Source: Ignavibacteria bacterium
Lineage (GTDB): Bacteria > Bacteroidota > Ignavibacteria > Tepidaquicellales > OLB5
Length of the DNA stretch: 32,057 nt
Assembly: GCA_030835085.1 (NCBI GenBank)
Contig: JAUQWQ010000221.1
Coordinates: forward strand, 1-32,057
Reading direction: 5' to 3'
Shown here: positions 15,596 through 29,998 of the stretch, in pieces
Layout of the letters: each line of letters starts with the position of its first letter
Numbering within the stretch: the stretch's first letter is position 1
The notes under the pieces: model-generated
Told to the model about the DNA's origin: nothing
Databases searched by the model: none
Seen by the model: the letters and a program-made list of their open reading frames with translations, nothing else
Translations under genes and position numbers: made by a program

Positions 15596-16738
15596 ATGGA
15601 TACATTAGCAACCGAAAAAAAAGCTGTAAAAGCAGTTGATTCTGCTGATTTTCTGCCGTTAAAGAATTGGGATCACATTGAATTTTATTGCGGAAATGCA
15701 AAACAATCTGCGTTTTATTACCAGTATGCTATGGGATTTAAACTTACAGCTTATAGCGGACTTGAAACCGGTAACCGCGAAAGAGCTTCATATCTTCTTG
15801 AACAGGGGAAGATCAAATTTGTACTTACCACACCGTACCATCCGGATAATTTTATTTCGGACCATATCAGGCAGCATGGAGATGGTGTAAGAGATATAGC
15901 ACTTGAAGTTGATGATGCTGAAAGCGCATTCAACGAAACAGTAAAACGCGGAGCTGTTCCGGCTATGGAGCCAACCAAGATTGAAGATGAAAATGGATTT
16001 ATAATCCGTTCTGCAATAAAAACATATGGTGATACACTCCATTCTTTCATTCAAAGAAATAATTACAAAGGATTGTTCCTTCCCGGGTTTGTTGATGCTT
16101 CTGCAAAAGCGGTTCAGGGGATAAAAGATGCCGGATTAAGATCAGTAGATCATATGGTTGGCAATGTTGAGCTTGGCAAAATGAATTTCTGGGTGAAGTT
16201 CTACGGAGAAACAATGGGATTCAGCCAGCTTCTTTCATTTGATGATAAGGATATTTCAACTGAATATACTGCATTAATGAGCAAGGTAATGCAAAACGGA
16301 ACCGGTAAGATAAAATTTCCGATAAACGAGCCAGCTGCCGGTAAAAAGAAATCACAGATAGATGAGTATCTTGAATTCTACCATGGCGCAGGATGCCAGC
16401 ATATTGCCATGAATACTACCAATATAGTTGAAACCGTCAGCGAGCTTAAAAGAAGGGGAGTTGAATTCTTACGTGTACCAACAACCTACTACCAGGAGCT
16501 TGAAGCGCGTGTTGGAAAGATAGATGAAGATGTTGATGAGCTTGCAAAACACGGAATACTTGTTGACCGTGATGATGATGGTTACCTTCTGCAGCTTTTC
16601 AGCAAACCTATCGAAGACAGACCTACTGTGTTTTTTGAAATAATCCAGCGTAAGGGTGCAAAGTCATTTGGTAAAGGTAACTTCAAAGCTTTATTCGAAG
16701 CGATTGAACGTGAGCAGGAAGTTCGCGGAACACTTTAA
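15596..16738 (+). CDS. hppD: 4-hydroxyphenylpyruvate dioxygenase
   Basis: A 380-residue non-haem Fe(II) enzyme that turns 4-hydroxyphenylpyruvate into homogentisate in tyrosine breakdown. The two vicinal-oxygen-chelate domains are present. The iron ligands are visible as His186 in '[10 protein letters not shown]', His269 in '[11 protein letters not shown]' and Glu348 in '[13 protein letters not shown]'. The C-terminal 'GFGKGNF'-type loop is read as [15 protein letters not shown], as expected for the substrate lid. It is followed after 43 bases by the next enzyme of the pathway. There is no Shine-Dalgarno sequence, in keeping with Bacteroidota-like initiation. Confidence 0.95.
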
Positions 16739-16781
16739 TTTTTAACAATTAATAATAAAAAGTACAATTAAATTATAATTA

Positions 16782-17960
16782 ATGGCATTTTATCATAAGC
16801 TGGGAAAATTACCCCAGAAAAGACACGTACAGTTCAGGCAGCCGGATGGTTCATTATACCAGGAGCAGGTTATTGGTACAGAAGGATTTTCCGGTATATC
16901 ATCAATCCTGTATCACATTAATCCGCCCACAAAAGTTAAGAAGATATCTACTATTGAAGATATCGGGTATAAAGAATGGAATGAAGGTACCCTAAGGCAT
17001 TTCCATATAAGGACACTAGATGCCAAACCGCTGGGTGACCCGGTTTCAGGCAGAAAAGTTATGCTTTACAATAATGATGTTTCTATGGCAATTTGCAATC
17101 CTGATAAACAAATGGATTACTTCTATAAAAATGGTGAAGGTGATGAAGTTATTTTCGTTCATTACGGTACAGGCACGCTTGAATCACAATACGGCTCACT
17201 CGATTATCATGATGGTGACTATATAGTAGTCCCCCGCGGAGTGATTTACAGAGTAGTTACAAAAAGTGAAAAGACAAAATTCATGGTAATCGAATCCAAA
17301 AGTCCTGTATACACCCCGGCAAGATATAAAAACTCTTATGGTCAGTACCTGGAGCACTCTCCGTTTTGCGAACGCGATTTCAGAGTTCCGGAAACACTGT
17401 TGACTGTAGATGAAAAAGGTGAGTTCTTAGTTAAGATAAAAAAGTTCAATAAGCTGCATCATTATATATTTGACTATCACCCGTTTGATATAGTTGGCTG
17501 GGATGGATATTTCTATCCATGGATATTTAATATCAACGATTTTATGCCTATTACCGGCAAGATACATCAGCCGCCGCCTGTGCATCAAACCTTCGAAGGC
17601 AGGAATTACGTGATATGCTCATTCTGTCCAAGGCTGTTTGATTATCACCCCGATGCAATACCTGCACCATATAACCACAGTAACATTGATAGCGACGAAG
17701 TGTTGTATTACGTTGAAGGTAATTTCATGTCACGCAAGGGCGTAGATGTAGCGTCGTTCACTTTGCATCCGGGGGGTATACCCCACGGTCCGCATCCGGG
17801 AACAATGGAAGCATCGATCGGCAAAAAGGAAACCCTTGAGCTTGCCGTTATGGTAGATACTTTTCACCCGCTGAAGCTGACCGAACATGCAAAGCCGTAT
17901 GACCTTCCCAACTATCCATATACATGGAATGAAGAGGGCCACGAAGCGGAAATAGAGTAA
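16782..17960 (+). CDS. hmgA: Homogentisate 1,2-dioxygenase
   Basis: A 392-residue cupin-type Fe(II) dioxygenase that opens the ring of homogentisate to maleylacetoacetate. By comparison with the human enzyme the iron ligands are His299 (APYNHSNID), Glu306 (SDEVLYYVEGNF) and His335 (GGIPHGPHPGTMEAS). The N-terminal part holds 'GFSGISSILYHINPPT' and a cupin core with 'DGDYIVVPRGVIYRV'. At 392 residues it is shorter than the animal enzyme (about 445), as many bacterial forms are. It forms an operon with the HPPD gene; the maleylacetoacetate isomerase and fumarylacetoacetase genes are not in the window. A terminator follows 37 bases after the stop. Confidence 0.93.
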   Translation: MAFYHKLGKLPQKRHVQFRQPDGSLYQEQVIGTEGFSGISSILYHINPPTKVKKISTIEDIGYKEWNEGTLRHFHIRTLDAKPLGDPVSGRKVMLYNNDVSMAICNPDKQMDYFYKNGEGDEVIFVHYGTGTLESQYGSLDYHDGDYIVVPRGVIYRVVTKSEKTKFMVIESKSPVYTPARYKNSYGQYLEHSPFCERDFRVPETLLTVDEKGEFLVKIKKFNKLHHYIFDYHPFDIVGWDGYFYPWIFNINDFMPITGKIHQPPPVHQTFEGRNYVICSFCPRLFDYHPDAIPAPYNHSNIDSDEVLYYVEGNFMSRKGVDVASFTLHPGGIPHGPHPGTMEASIGKKETLELAVMVDTFHPLKLTEHAKPYDLPNYPYTWNEEGHEAEIE

Positions 17961-18077: not shown

Positions 18078-19340
18078 ATGAGACATATCAAACTTTTCCT
18101 TGCTATAATTATTCTTCTTCAATCACTAACCTTTTCCCAAAACGGATGGGTTCTGCAAAATAGTGGGATAAACAAATTTATTTGCTCAAGTTACTTTGTT
18201 AATGACTTTATTGGTTATGCAGGCAGCAGCGGAGGTGATATTCTGAAAACAATTAACGGAGGAATTCAATGGTTCTCTGTTTATTCAAATCCGGAATACA
18301 GTATAGACGATGTTTTTTTTATTTATAGTAACATTGGTTGGGCAGTTGGTTTCCGTAATCCGCCTGAAATTAAAAATGTTGTTTTGAAGACTGTTAACGG
18401 CGGTGCTACATGGTCAGAAATTTATGTGGATTCATTGTACTCATTTGGTTCTGAAATCTATTTTTCTGACCTTACAACGGGATATTTAGCATGTGGAAAT
18501 CTAAAGAAAACAACAAATGGTGGAGTAAATTGGTTTACTGTATTTGATAATAGTTCAAGTGGTATTTTTTTTCTTAATACAAATACGGGATGGACAAGCG
18601 GGAGAAACAGAGGTGTAGATAAAACAACAGATGGTGGAAATTCCTGGATTAATCAATACCCATTTTTTTATCACAATTATGATGCAGATATTTATTTTAT
18701 TAATGAACAAAAAGGATTTGCTGTTAACGGCTATTTTGGGAGTTATGGTTACCTATATTACACAACCAACGGGGGATTGAACTGGAATGAAAATCATGAT
18801 TTTCAATATTTAGTTAATTCTATAAAATTTGTAAACACTAATACAGGCTATATGCTTGCATTGGGGTATTACAATGAGATTCAACTTTCAAAGACAACAA
18901 ATGGCGGAGCTAACTGGATATTGCATAATATAAATTCTACAAAAATTCCCGGTCATTTATTTTTTCGTTCTGTAAACACAGGCTGGTTAGTGGGTGATTC
19001 CGGTTTGATAATGAAAACGACCAATGGCGGGGTAACTATCGGCATCCAGCAAATCGGGATAAATGTGCCAGGGGATTTTTCGCTCTTTCAAAACTACCCA
19101 AATCCGTTTAACCCTTCTACAAAAATCAGATTTGATATAAGCGGCACAACGGCAGCACAGACATTCCTGATTGTCTATGATCTTCTGGGTAGGGAAGTTG
19201 CTGTATTGGTAAATGAAAAACTCAGGCCCGGTGAATATGAAGTAGATTTCAATGCTTCTAACTATCCAAGCGGTGTATATTATTATAAGCTATCGGCAGG
19301 TAATTTTTCCGAAACCAGGAAAATGGTAATAGTCAAATGA
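18078..19340 (+). CDS. Ycf48-like beta-propeller protein with T9SS sorting domain (tandem copy 1)
   Basis: A 420-residue secreted protein with signal peptide MRHIKLFLAIIILLQSLTFSQ and mature start 'NGWVLQNSGINKFI'. Blades are marked by 'TINGGIQWF', 'TVNGGATWS', 'TTNGGVNWF', 'TTDGGNSWI', 'TTNGGLNWN', 'TTNGGANWI' and 'TTNGGVTI', with intervening 'NTGW..G'. The sorting tail begins near residue 330 (FQNYPNPFNPSTKIRF) and contains the loop 'DISGTTAAQTF', shared in form with the next two genes. It is the first of three tandem paralogues on the same strand, each with its own terminator, so each may be transcribed alone. Confidence 0.85.
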   Translation: MRHIKLFLAIIILLQSLTFSQNGWVLQNSGINKFICSSYFVNDFIGYAGSSGGDILKTINGGIQWFSVYSNPEYSIDDVFFIYSNIGWAVGFRNPPEIKNVVLKTVNGGATWSEIYVDSLYSFGSEIYFSDLTTGYLACGNLKKTTNGGVNWFTVFDNSSSGIFFLNTNTGWTSGRNRGVDKTTDGGNSWINQYPFFYHNYDADIYFINEQKGFAVNGYFGSYGYLYYTTNGGLNWNENHDFQYLVNSIKFVNTNTGYMLALGYYNEIQLSKTTNGGANWILHNINSTKIPGHLFFRSVNTGWLVGDSGLIMKTTNGGVTIGIQQIGINVPGDFSLFQNYPNPFNPSTKIRFDISGTTAAQTFLIVYDLLGREVAVLVNEKLRPGEYEVDFNASNYPSGVYYYKLSAGNFSETRKMVIVK

Positions 19341-19381
19341 TCGTATATATTAATATTTTCAGTCAGATCCGTGTTATTTTC

Positions 19382-19406
19382 AAAGGCTGTTTTAAAACAG
19401 CCTTTT
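19382..19406 (+). terminator. Terminator of tandem cargo gene 1
   Basis: AAAGGCTGTTTT (19382-19393) is followed by its exact complement (19394-19405), then TTTTATAA. The core is the same as that of the hairpin at 17998. Confidence 0.8.
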
Positions 19407-19452
19407 ATAATTCTACTATAGTGTTTAATTGTATATATGCATATATTTATAC

Positions 19453-20742
19453 ATGAAAAAATTTTCAGTGAATAAAATTTTTAGATTTTACGCGTTTTTA
19501 TTGGTTTTACAGTCATTTTTGTTTGCGCAAAGCGGCTGGGTGCTGCAGCCAACGGGGATAAACAAATCACTCAATACAGGATTTTTTATCAATGATAATA
19601 CCGGTTACGCTGCCGGTAACAGCGGAGTAATATTAAAGACAGTAAATGGCGGCAGCAATTGGATAGTTGTGTATAATCAGCCAATATATGATATTCTTGC
19701 AGTTACATTTCTGGATGCGAATACCGGCTGGGCATTTATGAAAGGAAATGTTAATGACAGCTCCTTTGTAATTAAAACCACCAATTCAGGTACACTGTGG
19801 TCAAAGACTTTCATAGACACGGGCTCTTTCCAGAACAACCTTTCCGGATTACAATTTGCCGGAGCGAATACAGGTTATCTTGCAAATTCGCATGGATTAA
19901 GCAGAACGGTAAACGGAGGTTCAAGCTGGACTCCGCTGAATTCCGGTGTGATTCTTCCAACCTGTTTAAGTTTTCTTAATGTAAGCACTGGCTGGGTTGC
20001 CGGTTACCAGAGCAGCATGTTCAAAACCACTGATAGCGGGCAGAACTGGCTGCAGCAATTCAGCAGTCAGCCAAGTACAAACAGCCGTGCGATCTTATTT
20101 TTGAATGACCTTACAGGTTTTTATGCCACAGACTATGCTGTTTACAGATCAAGTAACGGTGGAAATGACTGGGACGAAAGTTTTAATGTTAGTAATATTT
20201 ATCCCCGCTCGTTTTCCTTCATAAATGCAAATACGGGATGGGTGCTTGCCCTGACAGCTGATACCAGCTTCAGGAACGTTCTTCTAAGAACAGATAACTC
20301 AGGGGCAACATGGGGAATACATGAACTTATTCTGCCTTCAAAGAGATTTAACAAAGTATACTTTACTTCCCAAAATACCGGCTGGCTATTGGGTGACTCA
20401 GGTTATATCTATAAAACTACCAATGGGGGTTTTCCTATTGGTATACAACCTATCAGCACTGAAATACCGAGGAATTTTTCACTTTTGCAAAATTACCCCA
20501 ACCCGTTTAATCCTTCGACAATAATCAGGTTTGATATTAGCGGCACATCCAGAGCGAAAACATCTCTGATAGTGTATGATCTATTAGGCAGAGAAGCAGT
20601 GGTTTTGGTGAATGAGCAGCTTGCTCCCGGGGAGTATAGTGTAAGTTTCAATGCCTCAAACTATCCAAGCGGAATTTATTATTATAAATTATCAACAGGT
20701 GGTGATTTTACTGAAACAAAAAAAATGGTATTGGTAAAATAA
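19453..20742 (+). CDS. Ycf48-like beta-propeller protein with T9SS sorting domain (tandem copy 2)
   Basis: A 429-residue secreted protein. The ATG at 19453 gives 'MKKFSVNKIFRFYAFLLVLQSFLFAQ', a good signal peptide; an upstream in-frame TTG adds only unlikely residues. The mature start 'SGWVLQPTGINKSLNTGFF' parallels copy 1. Blades carry 'TVNGGSNWI', 'TTNSGTLWS', 'TVNGGSSWT', 'TTDSGQNWL', 'SSNGGNDWD', 'TDNSGATWG' and 'TTNGGFPI'. The tail (LQNYPNPFNPSTIIRF, DISGTSRAKTSLIVYDLLGREAVVL, SGIYYYKL, ETKKMVLVK) is closest to copy 3, and the likeness continues past the stop codon. Confidence 0.85.
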   Translation: MKKFSVNKIFRFYAFLLVLQSFLFAQSGWVLQPTGINKSLNTGFFINDNTGYAAGNSGVILKTVNGGSNWIVVYNQPIYDILAVTFLDANTGWAFMKGNVNDSSFVIKTTNSGTLWSKTFIDTGSFQNNLSGLQFAGANTGYLANSHGLSRTVNGGSSWTPLNSGVILPTCLSFLNVSTGWVAGYQSSMFKTTDSGQNWLQQFSSQPSTNSRAILFLNDLTGFYATDYAVYRSSNGGNDWDESFNVSNIYPRSFSFINANTGWVLALTADTSFRNVLLRTDNSGATWGIHELILPSKRFNKVYFTSQNTGWLLGDSGYIYKTTNGGFPIGIQPISTEIPRNFSLLQNYPNPFNPSTIIRFDISGTSRAKTSLIVYDLLGREAVVLVNEQLAPGEYSVSFNASNYPSGIYYYKLSTGGDFTETKKMVLVK

Positions 20743-20780
20743 TACCCGAAAATTTGTTTAAAAAAGACTGAATTCAATAT

Positions 20781-20804
20781 AAAGGCTGATAAAAACAGCC
20801 TTTT
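20781..20804 (+). terminator. Terminator of tandem cargo gene 2
   Basis: AAAGGCTG (20781-20788) pairs with CAGCCTTT (20796-20803) around a 7-base A-rich loop. The T-tract after it is short (TTTTAG). Confidence 0.7.
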
Positions 20805-20893
20805 AGTTTACTTAATGTACTGGCTGCAATAACACGATAATGTATATTGCATATACTTATTTGTATAATTAAGTTTACTTTTACTTAATTAAT

Positions 20894-20899
20894 AAGGAG
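20894..20899 (+). promoter_or_regulatory. Strong ribosome-binding site
   Basis: AAGGAG lies 5 bases before the ATG at 20905 and fixes this start. Confidence 0.6.
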
Positions 20900-20904
20900 A
20901 ATTT

Positions 20905-22128
20905 ATGAAAAGAACTTTATTTATTTTCTTAATTGCCGGTAATTTTCTGCTGATTAATAATTGTTACTCACAATGGGTACAGGTTTCAAATGGGATGGGA
21001 AATATTCTTGCCGGTACTGTAACTATAGATGGTAACAATATGTTTGCCGGTGGTACAAGTGCAGGGGTATATTATACTTCAAATTTTGGTGCCAACTGGG
21101 TCCAGACAACACTCAATAACCAATTGGTCTTCGCTCTTATTAATTCCGGCAGTAATGTTCTCGCCGGGACGTTTAATGCAGGTACATTTCGCTCTTCAAA
21201 TAACGGCGCTTCGTGGAACCAGGTTACAATGGGAGGCAATATGACAGTATGGGCATATTGTTTTTCAGGGAGTAATATTTTTGCCGGAACATTTTGCCCT
21301 ATAGTTGCAAATATGGGTGTTTACAGGTCTACAGATAACGGTGTTTCGTGGAGCCTTGCCGGAGTAAATAACCGGGAAGTACGTTCACTGGCTTCTTTCG
21401 GTAATTACATCTATGCAGGAACAATAGACAGCGGTGTATTTATATCTACAAATAGCGGTGTGAACTGGAGTAAATCTTCTTTGAATAACCGTAATGTTCG
21501 TTCTTTAACTGTAAACGGAAATTTCGTTTTCGCCGGGATCTTGAATGCGCAGGGTGTGTTCAAATCAACTGATTATGGTAATACATGGATACAAAGTTTA
21601 TCAAATAACAACGACTGCAATGCTTTGGATATGATGGGTTCTACTGTAATTGCCGGTACAATTACTAACGGTGTTTATGTATCAAATGATAACGGAGCTA
21701 ACTGGGTACAGAAAAATGAAGGATTGAGTCATTTATCTGTTTTTGCGCTAAAGATATACAATGGTTTTGTTTATGCAGGTACTTCCGGGGGCGGGGTATA
21801 CAAAAGACCTTTAAGTGACCTGATCGGCATTTCCCAGATTTCGGAAATAGTACCGTTAAAATACAGCCTGAAGCAGAACTTTCCAAACCCGTTTAATCCT
21901 TCAACAACAATCAGGTTTGATATTAGCGGCACATCTGCAGCAAAGACATCCCTAATTGTATATGATCTTCTGGGACGCGAAGTTGAAGAACTTGTAAATG
22001 AAAAGCTCAGTCCTGGTGAATATGAAGTAAATTTTAACTCCTCAAACTATCCAAGCGGAATTTATTACTACAAATTATCAATAGGTGGTGATTTCACTGA
22101 AACAAAAAAAATGGTATTGGTAAAATAA
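20905..22128 (+). CDS. BNR/Asp-box-like propeller protein with T9SS sorting domain (tandem copy 3)
   Basis: A 407-residue secreted protein with an N-terminal signal peptide (about residues 1-22). The passenger differs from copies 1 and 2: seven shorter blades alternate 'NNMFAGGTSAGVYYTSNFGANW', that is 'VFAGT..GVF.S.NNGxxW', the Asp-box (S-x-D-x-G-x-T-W) layout seen in sialidase-type and sortilin-type propellers. No sialidase arginine triad is evident, so enzyme activity is not claimed. The tail (KQNFPNPFNPSTTIRF, DISGTSAAKTSLIVYDLLGREVEEL, SGIYYYKL, ETKKMVLVK) is very like copy 2. Note Phe instead of Tyr in NFPNPFNP. Confidence 0.82.
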   Translation: MKRTLFIFLIAGNFLLINNCYSQWVQVSNGMGNILAGTVTIDGNNMFAGGTSAGVYYTSNFGANWVQTTLNNQLVFALINSGSNVLAGTFNAGTFRSSNNGASWNQVTMGGNMTVWAYCFSGSNIFAGTFCPIVANMGVYRSTDNGVSWSLAGVNNREVRSLASFGNYIYAGTIDSGVFISTNSGVNWSKSSLNNRNVRSLTVNGNFVFAGILNAQGVFKSTDYGNTWIQSLSNNNDCNALDMMGSTVIAGTITNGVYVSNDNGANWVQKNEGLSHLSVFALKIYNGFVYAGTSGGGVYKRPLSDLIGISQISEIVPLKYSLKQNFPNPFNPSTTIRFDISGTSAAKTSLIVYDLLGREVEELVNEKLSPGEYEVNFNSSNYPSGIYYYKLSIGGDFTETKKMVLVK

Positions 22129-22167: not shown

Positions 22168-22196
22168 AAAGGCTGTTATAAAACAGCCTTTTTTGT
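22168..22196 (+). terminator. Terminator of tandem cargo gene 3
   Basis: AAAGGCTGTT (22168-22177) pairs with AACAGCCTTT (22182-22191) around ATAA and is followed by a T-run. It separates the cargo genes from the ligase-radical SAM unit. Confidence 0.85.
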
Positions 22197-22225: not shown

Positions 22226-23938
22226 ATGATACTTTCAGATAAAACTAAGCAAAATATAAACCGGGCGCATTTTGTAAACGGTATTGCTCCTGATAAATAC
22301 CGCGTGAACTACCGCAATATTTTTGAATTGCTGCAATACCAGGCTCAACGGCAGCCTGATGATAATTTTGTTACTTTCTATCCTGATAGCGGCGATAAAA
22401 TTACACTCAGTTATACAAAATTTGCAAATAGAGTATACAAAACAGCGAATCTTCTGAAAGCAAAGGGTATTTCTGCCGGTGACAGAATTACTACAATTTC
22501 ACATAATCATATTAATACGGTTATCCAGTATTTTGCTGCATGGTGTATAGGCGCAACTGTTGTTCCGGTAAATATCAGCGAAGAACCCGACAGAATTGAA
22601 TATATCCTGAAAAGCTCGAAGACAAAACTTGCTTTTATCTACGGTCATTATTTTAATAAATTCAAAGATGTGCTGAGTAAATTATCAATTCTGCCAATTG
22701 TACATTCGTATGAAATATCAAATGCTGAACCGGGAATATGTAATTTTGAAAGTGAACTAGAACTGCAAAATGATTTATTCATACCGGATGATTCAGTAAA
22801 CCAGGAAAATGAATCGCTTATAGTTTACACATCCGGCACAACTGGCCTGCCTAAAGGAGTGGTGCTTACTCAGTACAATTTAATGATAGATGCCGAAGGC
22901 ATCAGTAAATGGCATGGTATAACCAAAGGTACGGTAATGATGTGTGTATTACCGATACATCATGTTAACGGTACCGTGGTCACCATTATGACACCTATGT
23001 ATGCCGGTGGTTCTCTTATTCTTAACCAGAAATTTCACACTGATAGTTTTTTTAAAAGACTTGCAGATGAAAAGGTTAATATCGTAAGTGTAGTGCCGAC
23101 TTTGCTGCAGTTTTTATGCCATGATTATGAATCTGGAAAAAATGAAATTGAACAGATTCCTGCCTTGAAATCTTTTAGGCATATCATATGCGGCGCGGGA
23201 CCGCTGACCTGTGAGCTTGTTTCAAAATTTGAAAATATGTTCGCTCTAAAAATTGTACACGGTTACGGACTCTCGGAAACCACATGCTATTCATGTTTTA
23301 TACCGACTGAACTTAGTGAAACCGAACATAAAAAATGGCTTCTTGATTTTGGTTTTCCCAGCATAGGCATTGCAATTGAACCCAATGAAATGGATATCCA
23401 TAATGAGCATGGTGAATCAATGCCTGAAAATACCAGAGGCGAAATAGTGATCAGGGGTCATAACGTTATGAAGTACTATGATGAAAATTCTGAAGCCAAT
23501 GATAAAACGTTTGAATTCGGATGGTTCCGGAGCGGGGATGAAGGCTTTTTTGTAAATGATGAAAAGGAAAAGAAATATTTTTTCATAACGGGCAGGTTGA
23601 AAGAACTTATTATACGCGGCGGAGTGAATATAGCTCCTCTTGAAATAGATGAAGTTCTTATGAGTATTCCTGAAGTAAAATCAGCAATAGCTGTTGGATT
23701 TGATAATGACTGGTATGGTGAAGAAGTAGGCGCATTGGTTTTGTTAAAAGAAAATATTGCCGGAAGTGATGAAGTGAAAGAACGAATTATTAAGCATTGC
23801 AGGGAGAAGCTCCCTGCCTATAAATCACCTAAGGTAGTAGTATTTTCTGATTCAATTCCGGTTACTTCTACAGGAAAGTACCAGAGAAATAAAGTAAAAC
23901 ATCTTTTTGCTGAGTTCAAAACCGGGCAATATAAATGA
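22226..23938 (+). CDS. Class I adenylate-forming enzyme (acyl-CoA synthetase-like)
   Basis: A 570-residue ANL-superfamily enzyme that activates a carboxylic acid as acyl-AMP and usually passes it to CoA or another thiol. Motifs: YTSGTTGLPKG (P-loop, TSGTTG at residues 202-207), 'HGYGLSETTCYS' (A5), 'RSGDEGFF' (A7), 'ITGRLKELIIRGGVNIAPLEID' (A8 hinge) and the catalytic lysine in STGKYQRNK (Lys551). The ATG at 22226 is chosen because the longer in-frame TTG start falls inside the preceding terminator. The stop overlaps the ATG of the next gene (ATGA), which points to coupled translation and a shared process. The acid substrate cannot be read from sequence; CoA ligase and ligase to a carrier are both open. 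Confidence 0.85.
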   Translation: MILSDKTKQNINRAHFVNGIAPDKYRVNYRNIFELLQYQAQRQPDDNFVTFYPDSGDKITLSYTKFANRVYKTANLLKAKGISAGDRITTISHNHINTVIQYFAAWCIGATVVPVNISEEPDRIEYILKSSKTKLAFIYGHYFNKFKDVLSKLSILPIVHSYEISNAEPGICNFESELELQNDLFIPDDSVNQENESLIVYTSGTTGLPKGVVLTQYNLMIDAEGISKWHGITKGTVMMCVLPIHHVNGTVVTIMTPMYAGGSLILNQKFHTDSFFKRLADEKVNIVSVVPTLLQFLCHDYESGKNEIEQIPALKSFRHIICGAGPLTCELVSKFENMFALKIVHGYGLSETTCYSCFIPTELSETEHKKWLLDFGFPSIGIAIEPNEMDIHNEHGESMPENTRGEIVIRGHNVMKYYDENSEANDKTFEFGWFRSGDEGFFVNDEKEKKYFFITGRLKELIIRGGVNIAPLEIDEVLMSIPEVKSAIAVGFDNDWYGEEVGALVLLKENIAGSDEVKERIIKHCREKLPAYKSPKVVVFSDSIPVTSTGKYQRNKVKHLFAEFKTGQYK

Positions 23939-24858
23939 AAATAATATCATCTACAGGAAAAGAAGACCTTGCTGTTATATATATTGCCCAGGCTGCAGGC
24001 GGTAACTATGTTGAATTTGTTGAATCTCTGCAGCACCCAAAATCCCGGGAAGAAAAGTGGATTCTTACAGTATCTACTTTATATGGCTGCCCTGTTGATT
24101 GCCTGATATGCGATGCGGGACCGTATTACCTTGGCAGAATAAGCAAAGAGGGTATTTTCTGGCAGCTTGATCATATGATTTCGAAAAGGTATCCGGATAG
24201 TATTATACCTGTAAAGCAGCTTAAAGTTCATTTCACCAGGATGGGTGAACCTGCATTCAATTTTGCGGTGCTTGATGTAATGAGAGAGTTTGACCTGTAT
24301 TTCAATGCCCCGGGTTTTATGCCTTCAATTTCATCAATTGCACCTCAAGGAAGTGAAAAATTCTTTGAGGAGTTGTTAGCGCTCAAGAATGAGAAATTTA
24401 ATAAAGGCAATATCCAGCTGCAGTTTTCTATACATACTACTGATGAAGCCAAAAGAAATGAGCTGATACCCGTTAAAAAATGGAGTTTTGAAAAGATAGG
24501 GGAGTACGGCAGAAGGTTTCATACCGGTTTGGACCGAAAAGTAACACTGAGTTTCGCACCTGCATCTGAAAATGAAATAGATCCTGAGAAGATGCTCCGA
24601 TATTTTGATCACGAGCATTTTCTCATTAAGCTAACACCGTTAAACTTAACCAACAGTACGGTTAAAAATAATTTCACTTCCATAATAAATCCATTGGATA
24701 GCAGCGGCATCCAAAAACTCTCCGGTGAATTCAGGCAACTGGGTTATGAAGTTATTATCAGCATTGGTGACTACGAAGAAAATAAGATTGGCTCAACATG
24801 TGGTCAGAATATAGTTACAAATTTTAAAAATTCTGAAGATCCTAATATCAAAGATTAA
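23935..24858 (+). CDS. RlmN/Cfr-like radical SAM protein lacking the N-terminal domain
   Basis: A 307-residue radical SAM protein. The cluster motif is Cys52-x3-Cys56-x2-Cys59 (GCPVDCLIC), followed by 'RMGEPAFN' (102-109), 'LQFSIHTTDEAKRNELIPV' (162-180), 'LTPLNLTNST' (233-242) and 'GSTCGQN' (286-292). This order and spacing follow RlmN (CVSSQVGC, MGMGEP, SLHAP..RSKLMPIN, LIPFNP, AACGQL). Cys289 matches the methyl-carrying Cys355 of E. coli RlmN. The residue matching Cys118, seven before the first cluster Cys, is Thr45. The protein lacks the RlmN N-terminal helix-hairpin domain. It overlaps the ligase gene by four bases. An RNA methylase role is doubtful; the substrate is unknown. Confidence 0.82.
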   Translation: MKIISSTGKEDLAVIYIAQAAGGNYVEFVESLQHPKSREEKWILTVSTLYGCPVDCLICDAGPYYLGRISKEGIFWQLDHMISKRYPDSIIPVKQLKVHFTRMGEPAFNFAVLDVMREFDLYFNAPGFMPSISSIAPQGSEKFFEELLALKNEKFNKGNIQLQFSIHTTDEAKRNELIPVKKWSFEKIGEYGRRFHTGLDRKVTLSFAPASENEIDPEKMLRYFDHEHFLIKLTPLNLTNSTVKNNFTSIINPLDSSGIQKLSGEFRQLGYEVIISIGDYEENKIGSTCGQNIVTNFKNSEDPNIKD

Positions 24859-24883: not shown

Positions 24884-24917
24884 AAAGCCATCCTGTTCAA
24901 CAGGATGGCTTTAAATT
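24884..24917. terminator. Bidirectional terminator between convergent units
   Basis: A near-continuous palindrome: 14 bases (24884-24897) pair with 24899-24912 (core AAGCCATCCTGT), with T-runs on both strands. It ends the ligase-radical SAM unit (plus) and the large cargo gene at 24946 (minus). Confidence 0.85.
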
Positions 24918-24945: not shown

Positions 24946-26604
24946 TTATTTTACAAGTAACATTTTCTTTGTTTCAGTAAAGTTACCTGATTCTAACCTG
25001 TAGAAATATGCTCCGCTAGAAAGCTCTGAAGCATTGAAGTCTACAACATAGTTTCCTGCCGGTTTAACCTCATTTACAAGTGTTCTTACAACTCTTCCTA
25101 AAATATCAAATAATACAATTTTTACGTTCCCTGAAACTGGAATTGAGAACTTGATATTTGTTACCGGGTTAAACGGATTAGGATAGTTCTGGCTTAGCGA
25201 ATAAACCTGCGGTACCTGGTTGTTTACCGGGTTAATACCAACTAAATTGCCCAGTAAAGATGTAAGTATTACCTGGAATCCGCCTGGACCGGAGAAGTAA
25301 CTCGGGTCGCAGAATAAAGATCTTACTTCGTATGTGGCTGTAAGCCTCATTATTCCTGCAAGTGTATCGTTAACTGTATGGTTGCCGTACCTGTATAAAC
25401 CAAATGAACCATTACTGAATCCGGCACCATCAGGGTAGTAGTTTGAACCGGGTGTTGTGATATTTCGCGTATTTCCGTTATCTATTGCCATACCAACAAT
25501 AGTTCCAGGTGATGGGTATGCATTATCAAGTTTGTATGTGAAACCGCATGTTGTCGCAGAAAATACCGGGTCAATTCCAAGAGAACCGGTTCTGTTATAA
25601 TTATATGCCAGGTCGCCGCCAATTAAAACAAGTGTTTTCCTGTTTCCTGCAGTACCGTTGTTAAGCCATGCAGTCAGGTTGTTTCTTGCTGTTAGGCCAA
25701 GCCATCTTGTCTGTATAGCATCAAAGGCTGTTTCCTGAACGATGATCCTGTTATAACCGGTCAAAGTTGGTAATGTTGAATTTGTATCGAAAGTTACAAG
25801 GTCATAACCGCCAACTATACCGCCAAGATATTTCCTGAGTGTATCCTTGTCCTGTTTTCTTCTTGCAAGTGTTGTTGCAATTGTAGAATCATGCACAAGC
25901 ACAAGTGTTGTGTTTGTGACAGCCGGCCCAAGAAGTCTGATAAAATCAACACCAATAAAGTCACTATTGGTACCTGAGGGACCGCCGCTTGCTACCCTGT
26001 AATTAATTGCAAATCTTCCTGAAGCACCTGCTGATGGAAGTACATGTCTGCTTTCAGTCCAGCCTGCTGTTGATACTTTAAATTTACCAAGTTCAACAAA
26101 ACTGCCTGAGCCCGGAACAGTATCACCGTTTGATGCCCAGTATACTCTGATTGAATCCGGGAAAGTGGAAGCATCGGGTGATCTGGAATAAAATGAAAGT
26201 GTATCACCTGCATTTCCGTTTACAGTTGGTGAAATTAACCAGAGATCAATTGTGTTTGTTCCTGTAACATTATTGTAGTTTGCTGCAACGTAACCTGTTG
26301 CAGGTCCCTCAAATGCATTGAATACAGTTGAATTGCCCTGGAACCAGTTCGGTGAAGTTCCGGCAGGGCCGCTAAGTGGTCCTCTTTTGGGTTTCCAGCC
26401 TCTGTTACGAAGAGCAATTGTATCATTTGCTCCGTTTAAACTGTCAACAAATTTTACAATAGCATCAGTCTGAGCTATTTCAGGATTTCTTGAATCTGTT
26501 GATATGCTGCCTGGTGTTTTTGAATTGAAAGGATCAGAATAGATCAGTCCAAGAAATAAAATACCTACAGCAATTAAGGATAATACCGGGAATGCTTTTT
26601 TCAT
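24946..26604 (-). CDS. Choice-of-anchor J protein with GATase-like middle domain and T9SS sorting domain
   Basis: A 552-residue secreted protein. Residues 1-25 are a signal peptide or signal anchor (MKKAFPVLSLIAVGILFLGL). Residues about 50-225 form a choice-of-anchor J sandwich ('GWKPKRGPLSGPAGTSPNWF', 'DLWLISPTVNG', 'GVDFIRLLGPA'). Residues about 228-455 look like a Rossmann/GATase1-like fold often seen in T9SS cargo ('LVLVHDST', 'YDLVTFDT', 'YNRIIVQETAF', 'LTAWLNNG...KTLVLIGGDLAY'), without a clear catalytic Cys. The tail is SQNYPNPFNPVTNIKF to ETKKMLLVK. The anchor domain is almost the same as that of the gene at 28064, while the rest differs, so the two arose by duplication and domain swap. 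Confidence 0.83.
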   Translation of the reverse strand: MKKAFPVLSLIAVGILFLGLIYSDPFNSKTPGSISTDSRNPEIAQTDAIVKFVDSLNGANDTIALRNRGWKPKRGPLSGPAGTSPNWFQGNSTVFNAFEGPATGYVAANYNNVTGTNTIDLWLISPTVNGNAGDTLSFYSRSPDASTFPDSIRVYWASNGDTVPGSGSFVELGKFKVSTAGWTESRHVLPSAGASGRFAINYRVASGGPSGTNSDFIGVDFIRLLGPAVTNTTLVLVHDSTIATTLARRKQDKDTLRKYLGGIVGGYDLVTFDTNSTLPTLTGYNRIIVQETAFDAIQTRWLGLTARNNLTAWLNNGTAGNRKTLVLIGGDLAYNYNRTGSLGIDPVFSATTCGFTYKLDNAYPSPGTIVGMAIDNGNTRNITTPGSNYYPDGAGFSNGSFGLYRYGNHTVNDTLAGIMRLTATYEVRSLFCDPSYFSGPGGFQVILTSLLGNLVGINPVNNQVPQVYSLSQNYPNPFNPVTNIKFSIPVSGNVKIVLFDILGRVVRTLVNEVKPAGNYVVDFNASELSSGAYFYRLESGNFTETKKMLLVK

Positions 26605-26658
26605 AAAAAATTTGTTTAATGAATGAAATTAGTTAATTAGAGATGAATATCAATTTGA

Positions 26659-26687
26659 AATATGATAAATATCTTGACAAATTTCAA
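26659..26687 (-). promoter_or_regulatory. Likely promoter of the large cargo gene ending at 24946
   Basis: On the minus strand TTGAAA (26687-26682) and CATATT (26664-26659) are 17 bases apart, about 55 bases before the ATG. The paralogue at 28064-29998 has the same layout. Confidence 0.4.
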
Positions 26688-26740
26688 TATTTAAAAAAAT
26701 AAATTGTTATAAGTAATTAAATAACAATAGATTAATATAT

Positions 26741-26773
26741 AAAAAAGGCATCCTTTTTTCAAAGGATGCCTTT
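26741..26773 (-). terminator. Terminator kept after the decayed sorting tail
   Basis: A perfect 13-bp stem (26744-26756 with 26761-26773) with loop TTTC is followed by TTT on the minus strand. It lies 24 bases past the stop of the remnant at 26797. Confidence 0.75.
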
Positions 26774-26796
26774 GGCTGCTTTTTATTTTTACAGAA

Positions 26797-26942
26797 TTAT
26801 TTTACAAGAAGCATCTTTTTGGTTTCAGCAAAACTGCCTGATTCCAGGCGGTAGAAATCAACTAGATAATTACCTGCCGGTTTAACTTCATTTAACAATG
26901 TTGCAACTTCTCTTCCGAGTATATCAAATACAACAAGTCTAT
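26797..26942 (-). pseudogene. Remnant of a T9SS sorting domain
   Basis: On the minus strand the frame reads VVFDILGREVATLLNEVKPA, then GNYLVDF, then YRLESGSFAETKKMLLVK and a stop. It is the end of a sorting tail most like that of the gene at 24946 (VDFNASELSSGAYFYRLESG). The eleven residues between VDF and YRL are missing, an in-frame loss of 33 bases. The 'NYPNPFNP' part and any passenger are absent; the frame runs upstream into unrelated sequence and meets a TGA. The gene is dead or is a transplanted tail fragment. Confidence 0.75.
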
Positions 26943-27193
26943 CAGAAATTAATAGGGAAAGTAAACACTGCAGATGTGAAACATTGCTCAGGTTATAATG
27001 TTTGTACCAGGAATAACCGGACTGAAGAAATTTATCTACAACGCCTACTCACTGAAAATATTTCTTATAAGTGATGATCATAATTAAAAATTACAAAATT
27101 TGTAAACTATTCTATATATTACTTTAGAATGATTATACTTTTAACACGGTACTTTTAAATTAGAAATAGCAATAGATTTCTTGCCCCAAATTA

Positions 27194-27222
27194 TTGACAA
27201 ATCTAAAATATATTTATAACTT
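27194..27222 (+). promoter_or_regulatory. Likely promoter of the Cys-rich cargo gene
   Basis: TTGACA (27194-27199) and TAACTT (27217-27222) are 17 bases apart, about 97 bases before the ATG at 27320. Confidence 0.4.
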
Positions 27223-27319
27223 GTGCAAGATTTGAAAATCAGTTTTGTTACTTCGAAAAAAGAATATTCCAGTTTGTATCATAACTTAATTTTTTTACTT
27301 TAAAAGAAAGGGTATTATC

Positions 27320-27982
27320 ATGACAAAAAAGATCTTATTCAGAATCCTGATTTTTATTTCCTTTGTATTTTCTTTTTCCTTATCACAAAATCTGCTAGGA
27401 CAATGTAAAGTTTTAGCGTGTAACTGTTGTGATGAAAGACAGTATTATTTATTGTTAGACTCTGTCAATACTGTAAAAGGTAGTTTTTTCTTAGATCCAA
27501 ATGATTGCTCCTCACCAATTGGTGGCCTCGCATGGCCTCCGGGGGCAACATACCATTTTGTCCTCGATCCGAAATATTGTCCACAAGATGATCCGATTAC
27601 AGTTTATGTAACTGGATGTGTATGCAGATTGGAGCCTTTAGATACAGTAAGATTACCATGTTGCAACCAATCACTTAGACAGCGACTTGATAAATCAAAT
27701 CAGGATCTAAAAAACTATAAACTATATCAAAACTATCCGAATCCTTTTAATCCATCTACAACCATAAATTTTGATATTCCAGAAGATGCATATGTTACAT
27801 TAACAATTTTCGATGTAACTGGGAAAGTAATTATACGACCAATAAATCATAGCTTTTTGAAAGCAGGTTATCATGATTATATTTGGAATACAAGAGAATC
27901 GGAATTGTCAAGTGGAATTTATTTTTATTCTCTAAAAGCAGGCAACTTTTCCGATGAGAAAAAAATGGTATTAATAAAGTAA
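27320..27982 (+). CDS. Small Cys-rich protein with T9SS sorting domain
   Basis: A 220-residue secreted protein. Residues 1-22 are a signal peptide (MTKKILFRILIFISFVFSFS). The mature passenger is only about 100 residues and holds ten cysteines (29, 34, 36, 37, 63, 87, 100, 102, 114, 115) in the patterns CKVLACNCC, GCVC and PCC. I know no family for it. Disulfide-linked or metal-binding folds are both possible. Residues about 127-220 are the sorting tail (YQNYPNPFNPSTTINF, FDVTGKVII, SGIYFYSL, DEKKMVLIK), somewhat diverged from the others (VTGKV in place of LLGREV). No lipobox precedes Cys29. AAAGAAAGGG before the ATG is a fair ribosome site. Confidence 0.8.
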   Translation: MTKKILFRILIFISFVFSFSLSQNLLGQCKVLACNCCDERQYYLLLDSVNTVKGSFFLDPNDCSSPIGGLAWPPGATYHFVLDPKYCPQDDPITVYVTGCVCRLEPLDTVRLPCCNQSLRQRLDKSNQDLKNYKLYQNYPNPFNPSTTINFDIPEDAYVTLTIFDVTGKVIIRPINHSFLKAGYHDYIWNTRESELSSGIYFYSLKAGNFSDEKKMVLIK

Positions 27983-28009
27983 CTTTACATGATACAAACT
28001 GAGAAAAAC

Positions 28010-28039
28010 AAAAAGCCATCTTTTTTAAGATGGCTTTTT
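28010..28039. terminator. Bidirectional terminator between convergent cargo genes
   Basis: A perfect 13-bp stem (28010-28022 with 28027-28039; core AAGCCATCTT) with a TTTT loop has T-runs on both strands. It ends both the Cys-rich gene and the Kelch cargo gene. Confidence 0.85.
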
Positions 28040-28063
28040 GTTTAAAGTAAATGTTTTAAGTTT

Positions 28064-29998
28064 CTATTTAATTAGTAACATCTTCTTGGTTTGTTTAAAG
28101 TTCTCAGTTTCGAGAGTATAAAAATAAACACCGGTTGCCAGGTTTGAAGCGTTAAAAGATATATTGTGTCTTCCGGCACTTCTTAATTCGTTAACAAGTG
28201 TTTTAACTTCTTTTCCTGTAATATCATACACTTTTAATGATACAAGTGAAGATGTAGGAAGGCTGAAGTTAATTATTGTTGATGGGTTGAACGGATTCGG
28301 ATAGTTCTGTGAAAGCTCAAACTTCTCCGGTGTGTTTGTTGAATTATTGCCAGAGTTTGTAAATACGCCAGCTCTTGTAATATGAAATAGATTAGTTGCG
28401 GCACCGGTTCCAATACCGCCTACTATTCCATAACCTGCGGGACAGAATAAACTCAATGTATCATTGATACATTTTGCAGTTATATGACCCATAATGTTTG
28501 ATCTTGGGAATGGTAATCCGATTATTTGACCGCTCCATGTATTTGAGGTAGCGTTGAACACATAAGTTATATCTGAATAACCAGTTGTTGAACCTCTTTC
28601 ACCGCCTACCAGAAAGAACCAGTTGCCGAATGATGTTGCGCCAGGTCTGCTGAGCCCGCTTTCAGTTGTCGGGATATCCGGCGCAGCCGCCCATGTAATT
28701 GTTGAAGCGTTTGAACCTAATGTCCCAACATATGTACTTTTTAAGAACGCAGTGTTGAATCCGCCGCTGATAATTATCTTATTTCCATTTATTCCCATAG
28801 CAAATGTTCTTCTGCCTTGGCTTGTTGGCAGTGAGGATGCAGTTGTTCCCCAGGTATTACTGCCAATTCTGTAGTAATGATGCGCAAGATTTGTTCCTGA
28901 ACCGGTATATGGTCCACCAACCACAACAATTACGCTATCACCCCAATTTACAGCCTGATGTCCTGAAAGTGCTGCCGGCAATGGTGCCATCGTTGTCCAG
29001 CCTGCTCCGGGTGTGTAGGAGTAAACTGTAGTGCCGCCAGTTGTGATTCCTGTTGCACTGCCGCCAACATAATATAACTTACCGCCTGCCGAAACCATTG
29101 AGCCACCTACTAATGCTCCTGGCATTGGCACGCCTGTAGTCCATGACCCATTATATGTATATCTGTAAATTGTAGTTGAAGCTGCGCCCGCAGATGATGG
29201 AGCATGGAAGTATAATGTATCACCGATCCATGCAGAATTGCCAAAATAAGATGCACTAGGTACGACAGGACGTGTTGTCCATTGATTAGCAACTATGTTA
29301 CAAGTTTGAGGTGGTGCAGCCGGTCCGAGTAATCTTATCAGATCTACGCCAATAAAATCACTGTTTGTGCCTGAAGGTCCGCCATTTGCTACCCTGTAAT
29401 TAATTGCAAACCTTCCTGAAGCTCCTGCTGATGGAAGTAAATATCTGCTTTCTGTCCAGCCTGCAGTAGAAACCTTGAATTTACCAAGCTCTACAAAACT
29501 TCCTGAACCAGGAACCGTATCGCCGTTAGATGCCCAGTATACTCTTATTGAATCAGGGAATGTTGAAGCATCGGGAGAGCGTGAATAAAAAGAAAGTGTA
29601 TCACCAGCTGCGCCGTTAACATTCGGTGAAATTAACCAAAGGTCAATGGTATTTGTTCCGGTAACATTGTTGTAATTCGCAGCAACATATCCGGTTGCCG
29701 GACCTTCAAATGCATTAAATACTGTTGAGTTGCCCTGGAACCAGTTTGGTGATGTACCTGCCGGCCCGCTGAGCGGTCCTCTTTTGGGCTTCCAGCCTCT
29801 TGTCCTCAATGCAATTGTATCGTTAGTGCCGTTCATATCATCAACAAACTTTACGATATTACTTACCGGCGGTGTAATTTGGCTTATCGAATTATCCGGG
29901 GAATTGTTCAATCTGGAACCGTAAGGATCAGAATAGATCAATCCGAAGAAAAGTACAACGATAGCCATAAATCCAAATAACGGAAATAATTTCTTCAT
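28064..29998 (-). CDS. Choice-of-anchor J and Kelch-repeat protein with T9SS sorting domain
   Basis: A 644-residue secreted protein with signal peptide or anchor MKKLFPLFGFMAIVVLFFGL. Residues about 50-230 form the choice-of-anchor J domain, 154 of 160 residues identical to that of the gene at 24946. Residues about 235-545 are Kelch-type propeller repeats ('YRYTYNGSWTTGVPMPGALVGGSM', 'YYVGGSATG', 'YSYTPGAGWTTMAPLPAALSGHQ', 'YVFNATSNTWSG', 'PRSNIMGHI'), a fold for protein or glycan binding. The tail is SQNYPNPFNPSTIINF, YDITGKEVKTL, TGVYFYTL, KQTKKMLLIK. The Kelch part replaces the GATase-like part of its paralogue. Confidence 0.85.
   Translation of the reverse strand: MKKLFPLFGFMAIVVLFFGLIYSDPYGSRLNNSPDNSISQITPPVSNIVKFVDDMNGTNDTIALRTRGWKPKRGPLSGPAGTSPNWFQGNSTVFNAFEGPATGYVAANYNNVTGTNTIDLWLISPNVNGAAGDTLSFYSRSPDASTFPDSIRVYWASNGDTVPGSGSFVELGKFKVSTAGWTESRYLLPSAGASGRFAINYRVANGGPSGTNSDFIGVDLIRLLGPAAPPQTCNIVANQWTTRPVVPSASYFGNSAWIGDTLYFHAPSSAGAASTTIYRYTYNGSWTTGVPMPGALVGGSMVSAGGKLYYVGGSATGITTGGTTVYSYTPGAGWTTMAPLPAALSGHQAVNWGDSVIVVVGGPYTGSGTNLAHHYYRIGSNTWGTTASSLPTSQGRRTFAMGINGNKIIISGGFNTAFLKSTYVGTLGSNASTITWAAAPDIPTTESGLSRPGATSFGNWFFLVGGERGSTTGYSDITYVFNATSNTWSGQIIGLPFPRSNIMGHITAKCINDTLSLFCPAGYGIVGGIGTGAATNLFHITRAGVFTNSGNNSTNTPEKFELSQNYPNPFNPSTIINFSLPTSSLVSLKVYDITGKEVKTLVNELRSAGRHNISFNASNLATGVYFYTLETENFKQTKKMLLIK

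Follow-up and report, generated by a model that had tools for sequence, protein, structure and literature searches.

RlmN and Cfr are the two representatives of the class A radical SAM methylases covered in a review of these enzymes (PMC9692996). RlmN methylates C2 of A2503 in 23S rRNA and of A37 in tRNA (TIGR00048), and Cfr methylates C8 of A2503 (TIGR04432). It has been shown that, in RlmN, Glu105 deprotonates Cys355, SAM methylates this cysteine and a second SAM molecule gives rise to a radical, after which the adenine is attacked by the methylene radical, and the C-S bond can break once Cys118 has removed a proton (PMC9692996). The second cysteine is regarded as essential in both enzymes, and the source that reduces the thiyl radical in RlmN is called unidentified (PMC9692996). 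Here we describe a relative of these proteins that is encoded in an Ignavibacteria genome and belongs to a real, conserved and previously uncharacterised sister class of RlmN/Cfr. The open-access literature yielded no report of a class lacking Cys118 or of a link between RlmN-like and isochorismatase-fold proteins.

The radical SAM protein and its locus

The window, i.e., the whole 32,057-nucleotide stretch analysed here, contains an ANL superfamily ligase gene followed by a radical SAM gene (Table 1). The sequence-only reading had described the two as a unit overlapping by ATGA and bounded by terminators. The overlap is confirmed, and terminator-like stems of 10–13 pairs with T runs flank the pair, although the scan by itself is weak (4 found vs 1.9 expected in shuffles). 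The count of promoter-like sites was not above that in shuffles. An alternative in-frame start of the ligase, TTG at 22193, lies close to the terminator of the preceding gene. On both sides of the pair (18078–22128 and 24946–29998) there are several large genes with product ends resembling type IX secretion sorting signals, and the number of such genes around the pair varies among genomes of the genus (e.g., L044).

Table 1. Features of the ligase-radical SAM gene pair and its flanks (window coordinates)
Feature	Position	Strand	Comment
Terminator-like stem	22168..22191	+	belongs to the gene preceding the ligase
ANL superfamily acyl/aryl-CoA ligase, 570 aa	22226..23938	+	ATG start; genus-restricted neighbour of the radical SAM gene
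Overlap of ligase stop and radical SAM start, ATGA	23935..23938	+	seen in the sequence
RlmN/Cfr-related radical SAM protein, 307 aa, lacking Cys118 and the N-terminal domain	23935..24858	+	
Glu27 codon, equivalent to E. coli RlmN Glu105	24013..24015	+	42/42 in the family; role from PMC9692996
Thr45 codon, place of RlmN Cys118 / Cfr Cys105	24067..24069	+	
CxxxCxxC [4Fe-4S]/SAM motif, Cys52/56/59	24088..24111	+	
Arg102 codon	24238..24240	+	Arg in 42/42 family members vs Gly177 in 35/35 RlmN
Cys289 codon, equivalent to the methyl-carrier Cys355 of RlmN, in CGQ	24799..24801	+	42/42
Terminator-like stem closing the ligase-radical SAM pair	24884..24912	pattern matched on both strands	

The radical SAM protein has the RlmN-type core that the earlier reading had recognised, with the CxxxCxxC cluster motif, MGEP (residues 103–106) and CGQ (289–291), where Cys289 corresponds to Cys355. 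Alignment likewise bears out the placement of Thr45, which matches E. coli RlmN Cys118 without a gap, and the lack of the N-terminal domain: only 51 residues precede the first cluster cysteine, compared with 124 in E. coli RlmN, and the predicted structure (pLDDT 87) superposes on RlmN residues 80–375. The protein scores 26 bits against the RlmN model (cut-off 290) and reaches no curated family cut-off; a Pfam search retrieved no model at E 0.001, and a PDB search with the single sequence gave no match. When the PDB was searched with a profile of relatives, Cfr and RlmN were the only significant matches, with Cfr (9p0p, E 5.8e-11) at the top. The predicted fold is closest to 6fz6 (Z 23.9) and RlmN (5hr7, Z 23.7), about ten units above the next fold outside RlmN/Cfr (Z 13.9). 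The host genome carries a separate, true rlmN (C169, 394.6 bits vs the cut-off of 290), as the earlier reading had anticipated, and a distinct RlmN-like protein of ordinary length is also present in 9 of the 11 other carrier genomes checked. The radical SAM gene is subject to purifying selection (dN/dS 0.045–0.057 for three pairs with dS of 1.6–2.2).

A family without the resolving cysteine

The searches recovered relatives of this protein from Ignavibacteria, Zixibacteria, Bacteroidales, an alphaproteobacterial bin and Aminicenantes (a fragment), as well as from 45 of the 103 Thermotogota genomes searched. In Chlorobi bacterium OLB5 (L011:8001-8901), a frameshift following residue 173 divides the gene in two, which may reflect an error in the assembly. 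We aligned 42 members of the family and compared them with 35 RlmN proteins encoded in the genomes that were searched. Glu105, Cys125, Cys129, Cys132, Ser233, His235 and Cys355 (E. coli numbering) are invariant in all 42, and the likeness to RlmN extends to the MGEP motif and to the location of Cys355 in CGQ; equivalents of Glu91 and Cys338 of Cfr are thus retained together with the fold and the cluster motif. The place of Cys118 (Cys105 in Cfr) is occupied by Ile in 35 members, Thr in 6 and Leu in one, and never by Cys, which is present in 35/35 RlmN proteins; Thr45 of the window protein is therefore one case of a family-wide absence of cysteine. All 42 members have 50–51 residues before the cluster, vs 85–218 in the 35 RlmN proteins, and unlike RlmN and Cfr they lack the N-terminal domain (the HhH domain of RlmN). 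The proposal that Thr45 and the missing domain define a clade thus stands for the absence of cysteine and the short N-terminus but fails for threonine itself. These traits exceed chance, being common to 42 relatives from several phyla and maintained under purifying selection.

The family also departs from the known enzymes in the substrate pocket, if the roles seen in the Cfr-RNA structure (PMC13001441) are carried over through sequence alignment. The residues contacting the target nucleotide would be replaced throughout (T116 to V/I, N172 to K, V174 to Q/H, A231 to Q, N307 to K and R344 to Gly or Ser depending on the alignment, never Arg), with G177 to R nearby; the corresponding contacts of Cfr that are replaced include Ser103, Ser151, Ser153, Asn288 and Arg327. 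The pocket gains invariant Lys97, Arg102, Gln161, Gln163 and Lys232. These replacements bear on the possibility that the family still comprises RNA methylases, acting at another RNA site and using a different general base instead of Cys118. The closest homologues of known function are RNA methylases, Glu105 and Cys355 are kept, and the new Lys and Arg residues could bind phosphate; nevertheless, the RNA-binding N-terminal domain is missing in 42/42 members, the nucleotide contacts are replaced, and most members have Ile, which is found in place of Cys118.

In the phylogenetic tree, the cellular family forms a single clade (support 96/95) outside RlmN/Cfr, and the proteins without Cys118 are split from RlmN, Cfr and short Cys118-bearing phage homologues with support of 99/92. 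When the tree was repeated with a sample of a viral clade, the state of Cys118 changed once; the tree being unrooted, the change can be read as loss or gain. In view of this placement, of the clade-defining absence of Cys118 and the N-terminal domain, and of the true rlmN elsewhere in the genome, the suggestion of the earlier reading that the same chemistry is put to a different use is plausible.

Viral and phage relatives

The viral branch corresponds to PHROG 24834, a group annotated as of unknown function, which includes a protein of Bacteroides phage Versailles and those of about 20 further viral contigs, and is matched by the window protein with E 1.2e-33. Its members share with the cellular family Thr at the place of Cys118 (20/20, as in the window protein), Cys355 (20/20), Arg177 (19/20), Lys307, Gln231 and Thr309, and differ in being about 335 aa long, in carrying an insert ahead of the cluster, and in having Asn instead of His235 and CGN instead of CGQ. 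Scanning the viral collection with profile A1 or A5 gave no match; a query with the phage Versailles protein recovered the branch. Viral and prophage proteins of this kind are encoded on IMG/VR contigs (L189-L209) and at L126:7917-8924. No flavoprotein or hydrolase genes of the kind described below were detected near the viral genes in the stretches fetched. The plasmid search produced just RlmN/Cfr-type matches, under 60% identity. In Moorella phage MTATph1 (L127:5836-6798), a homologue lacking Cys118 has Gly at this place and an in-frame stop ahead of the segment with the Cys355 motif.

Other phages encode short RlmN-like proteins of 295–319 aa (L129:4890-5819, L128:5884-6843, L134:2884-3843, L135:3887-4813 and L133:2980-3867) which keep both cysteines and have no N-terminal domain. 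In two Stenotrophomonas phages these genes are located among tRNA genes, an arrangement that counts in favor of the RNA-methylase reading of the family, so the loss of the N-terminal domain alone does not exclude RNA. In Vibrio phage PS17B-2, such a gene adjoins those for nicotinamide phosphoribosyltransferase and PRPP synthase.

Partner genes

Outside the genus to which the window belongs, the radical SAM gene adjoins a gene for a thioredoxin reductase (TrxR)-like flavoprotein and usually also one for an isochorismatase-fold hydrolase, with the genes overlapping or nearly so. In Thermotogota, 30/30 loci have a flavoprotein gene on the same strand at a distance of no more than 2 kb (two of these matches are edge fragments), as do 12 of the 14 other loci; the hydrolase gene is nearby in 20/30 and 11/14, respectively. 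These counts come from flanks of 1.5 kb for most loci and from related genomes, which are not independent. In a thirteenth locus outside Thermotogota (G448), the flavoprotein gene is 1.6 kb away, past the fetched stretch. Neither gene was found near any of 36 rlmN loci. Given that many bacteria encode the radical SAM protein together with a flavin enzyme and a small hydrolase, a related chemistry on a different target is probable. That the gene is kept in an operon with two enzymes of metabolic type, and with no gene for an RNA, further argues against an RNA methylase, and we consider that reading unlikely, although it keeps more weight than any other alternative discussed here.

The flavoprotein resembles low-Mr thioredoxin reductases and TrxR-type ferredoxin-NADP reductases in its fold and in the FAD and NAD(P) glycine motifs, and is nearer to TrxR by both sequence and predicted fold (Z 28.8). 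Unlike TrxR, it lacks CxxC: neither this motif nor a conserved Cys pair is present in the aligned flavoproteins of the cassette, and one member has no cysteines at all. A lone CDDC match (L124) is upstream of the flavoprotein proper, in an unaligned 5' stretch. The TrxR of the window's genus has CATC. Without a dithiol, the cassette flavoprotein cannot be an ordinary disulfide reductase, and electron transfer from it to the radical SAM protein would be the simplest reading. In one genome (G441, L177:5425-7170), the flavoprotein and the radical SAM protein are in a single 581-aa frame. We did not accept this fusion as Rosetta-stone evidence because the junction falls at a poly-A run in which a one-base change would bring back an ATGA overlap, and a sequencing error may be involved.

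The hydrolase has the Asp-Lys-Cys triad (D44/K128/C161, invariant in alignment A3) of isochorismatase-fold cysteine hydrolases such as RutB, YecD and biuret hydrolase, but differs from these families in scoring under every NCBIfam cut-off. Closely related hydrolase genes occur in bins of two different phyla (L072, on contig 302 of G306/G410, and L074, in G298); one of the two is on a 3.1-kb contig, and bin contamination is a possible explanation.

The ligase and the history of the locus

The ligase contains PF00501 (E 4.6e-72) and PF13193 (E 8.2e-14), and its best NCBIfam match is PRK06187 (341 bits, under the cut-off of 476). Like other ANL acyl-CoA ligases, it has the ATP-binding motif, the hinge region and the catalytic lysine, with all motifs intact (YTSGTTGLPKG at residue 201, GYGLSE, GWFRSGD, GRLKELIIRGG and TSTGKYQR at 547). 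The earlier reading had coupled the radical SAM protein to this ligase and suggested as one possibility that it acts on an acyl group which the ligase has activated; in a fuller version, the acid could be acyl or aryl. Within the genus, the radical SAM gene is present in 13/13 genomes and the ligase gene in 11 by search, plus a piece at a contig edge in G418; the two are adjacent, often overlapping, in ten genomes and linked in two more. In one of the latter (G412, L176), the genes for the ligase, hydrolase, flavoprotein and radical SAM protein are consecutive in a single run. In the other (G414), an opposite-strand gene separates the ligase from the radical SAM gene, and a complete hydrolase-flavoprotein-radical SAM set is located elsewhere (L071).

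This association, the intact ligase motifs and the four-gene run of G412 count in favor of such a scheme, but the pairing does not extend beyond the genus. Of the 44 genomes in the order, 31 encode homologues of the ligase (55–73% identity), and most of these have no radical SAM relative; of the four carriers of the radical SAM gene in the sister family f2, three have no close ligase and the fourth has the ligase on another contig; and in Thermotogota, Zixibacteria and Bacteroidales the radical SAM gene has other partners with no ligase beside it. The ligase is thus an older, order-wide gene that is paired with the radical SAM gene in a single genus, and it is the flavoprotein and the hydrolase that are the general partners, so that the reading in which the ligase supplies the substrate is improbable. 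Upstream of the ligase in the window (15596-17960) is a gene for 4-hydroxyphenylpyruvate dioxygenase (468.6 bits, above the cut-off), followed by a homogentisate-dioxygenase-like gene (60 bits, far under the cut-off), an arrangement conserved within the genus; we rejected a functional link to these tyrosine-degradation genes because this association, too, is restricted to the genus.

The ligase-linked radical SAM proteins form one clade (99/96) within the family, next to the protein of L071. The locus is explained most simply if the cassette inserted behind a ligase gene that was already there and subsequently lost its middle genes, which would have happened more than once in the genus if the copies in G412 are inherited; the flavoprotein and hydrolase trees do not resolve whether these were inherited or acquired. 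The flavoprotein gene is not beside the ligase-linked radical SAM gene in 12 of the 13 genomes of the genus, so there is no strict need for it in cis. Neither cassette gene was found in the window's own genome. The strong purifying selection after the presumed loss of the middle genes implies that the radical SAM protein is still functional, presumably drawing its electrons from a different source.

Proposed mechanism

The explanation that we favor, to which we give roughly an even chance, is that this sister class of RlmN/Cfr works independently of Cys118 and applies methylcysteine radical chemistry to a substrate other than RNA, most likely a small anionic compound. The family keeps all the residues that RlmN uses for its chemistry up to the addition step and lacks that for the last step. 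From this pattern and the gene linkage, we infer the following order of reactions. Glu27 would deprotonate Cys289, which would receive the methyl group of a first SAM; a second SAM would be cleaved at the cluster, and the 5'-deoxyadenosyl radical would abstract a hydrogen from S-methyl-Cys289, giving a methylene radical that could attack an unsaturated carbon of the substrate. Residues specific to the class (Lys97, Gln99/His, Arg102, Gln161, Gln163 and Lys232) would hold this substrate in place.

With no Cys118, the enzyme must rely for release on another base, perhaps one of the new polar residues, or on electrons, and the family would fit a substrate with an adduct that collapses by reduction or with such a base. 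In most carriers, the neighbouring TrxR-like flavoprotein might supply electrons for both release and SAM cleavage, and the isochorismatase-fold hydrolase might act on the same compound, earlier or later. An acyl-CoA ligase already present in the genus of the window would have become the neighbour there, and most lineages, including that of the window, no longer have the hydrolase and the flavoprotein.

It could also be argued that release never occurs and that a stable Cys-CH2-substrate adduct is the endpoint, be it self-modification, a target trap or a retired copy, given that RlmN C118A and Cfr C105A halt at a covalent adduct (PMC9692996, PMC13001441). We regard this as very improbable: the catalytic residues are invariant, dN/dS is about 0.05, the protein is kept in every genome of the genus, and a linked redox enzyme would be needless for a one-shot protein. 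The invariant methyl-carrier cysteine and the strong purifying selection speak for an enzyme that turns over. More tentatively, with somewhat less than an even chance, we hypothesize that the preferred scheme applies to a radical SAM class spanning cells and viruses, with an RlmN-type methylcysteine radical, no resolving cysteine, a non-RNA substrate and a dedicated flavoprotein reductase.

Implications

A large sister class in which the methyl-carrier is kept and the second cysteine is never present amounts to a natural test of the purpose of that cysteine. The existence of this class suggests that methylcysteine radicals act on other targets, and the neighbouring flavoprotein is a candidate electron donor. 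If the broader hypothesis of a cellular and viral class is correct, RlmN and Cfr would represent just one branch of methylcysteine radical chemistry.
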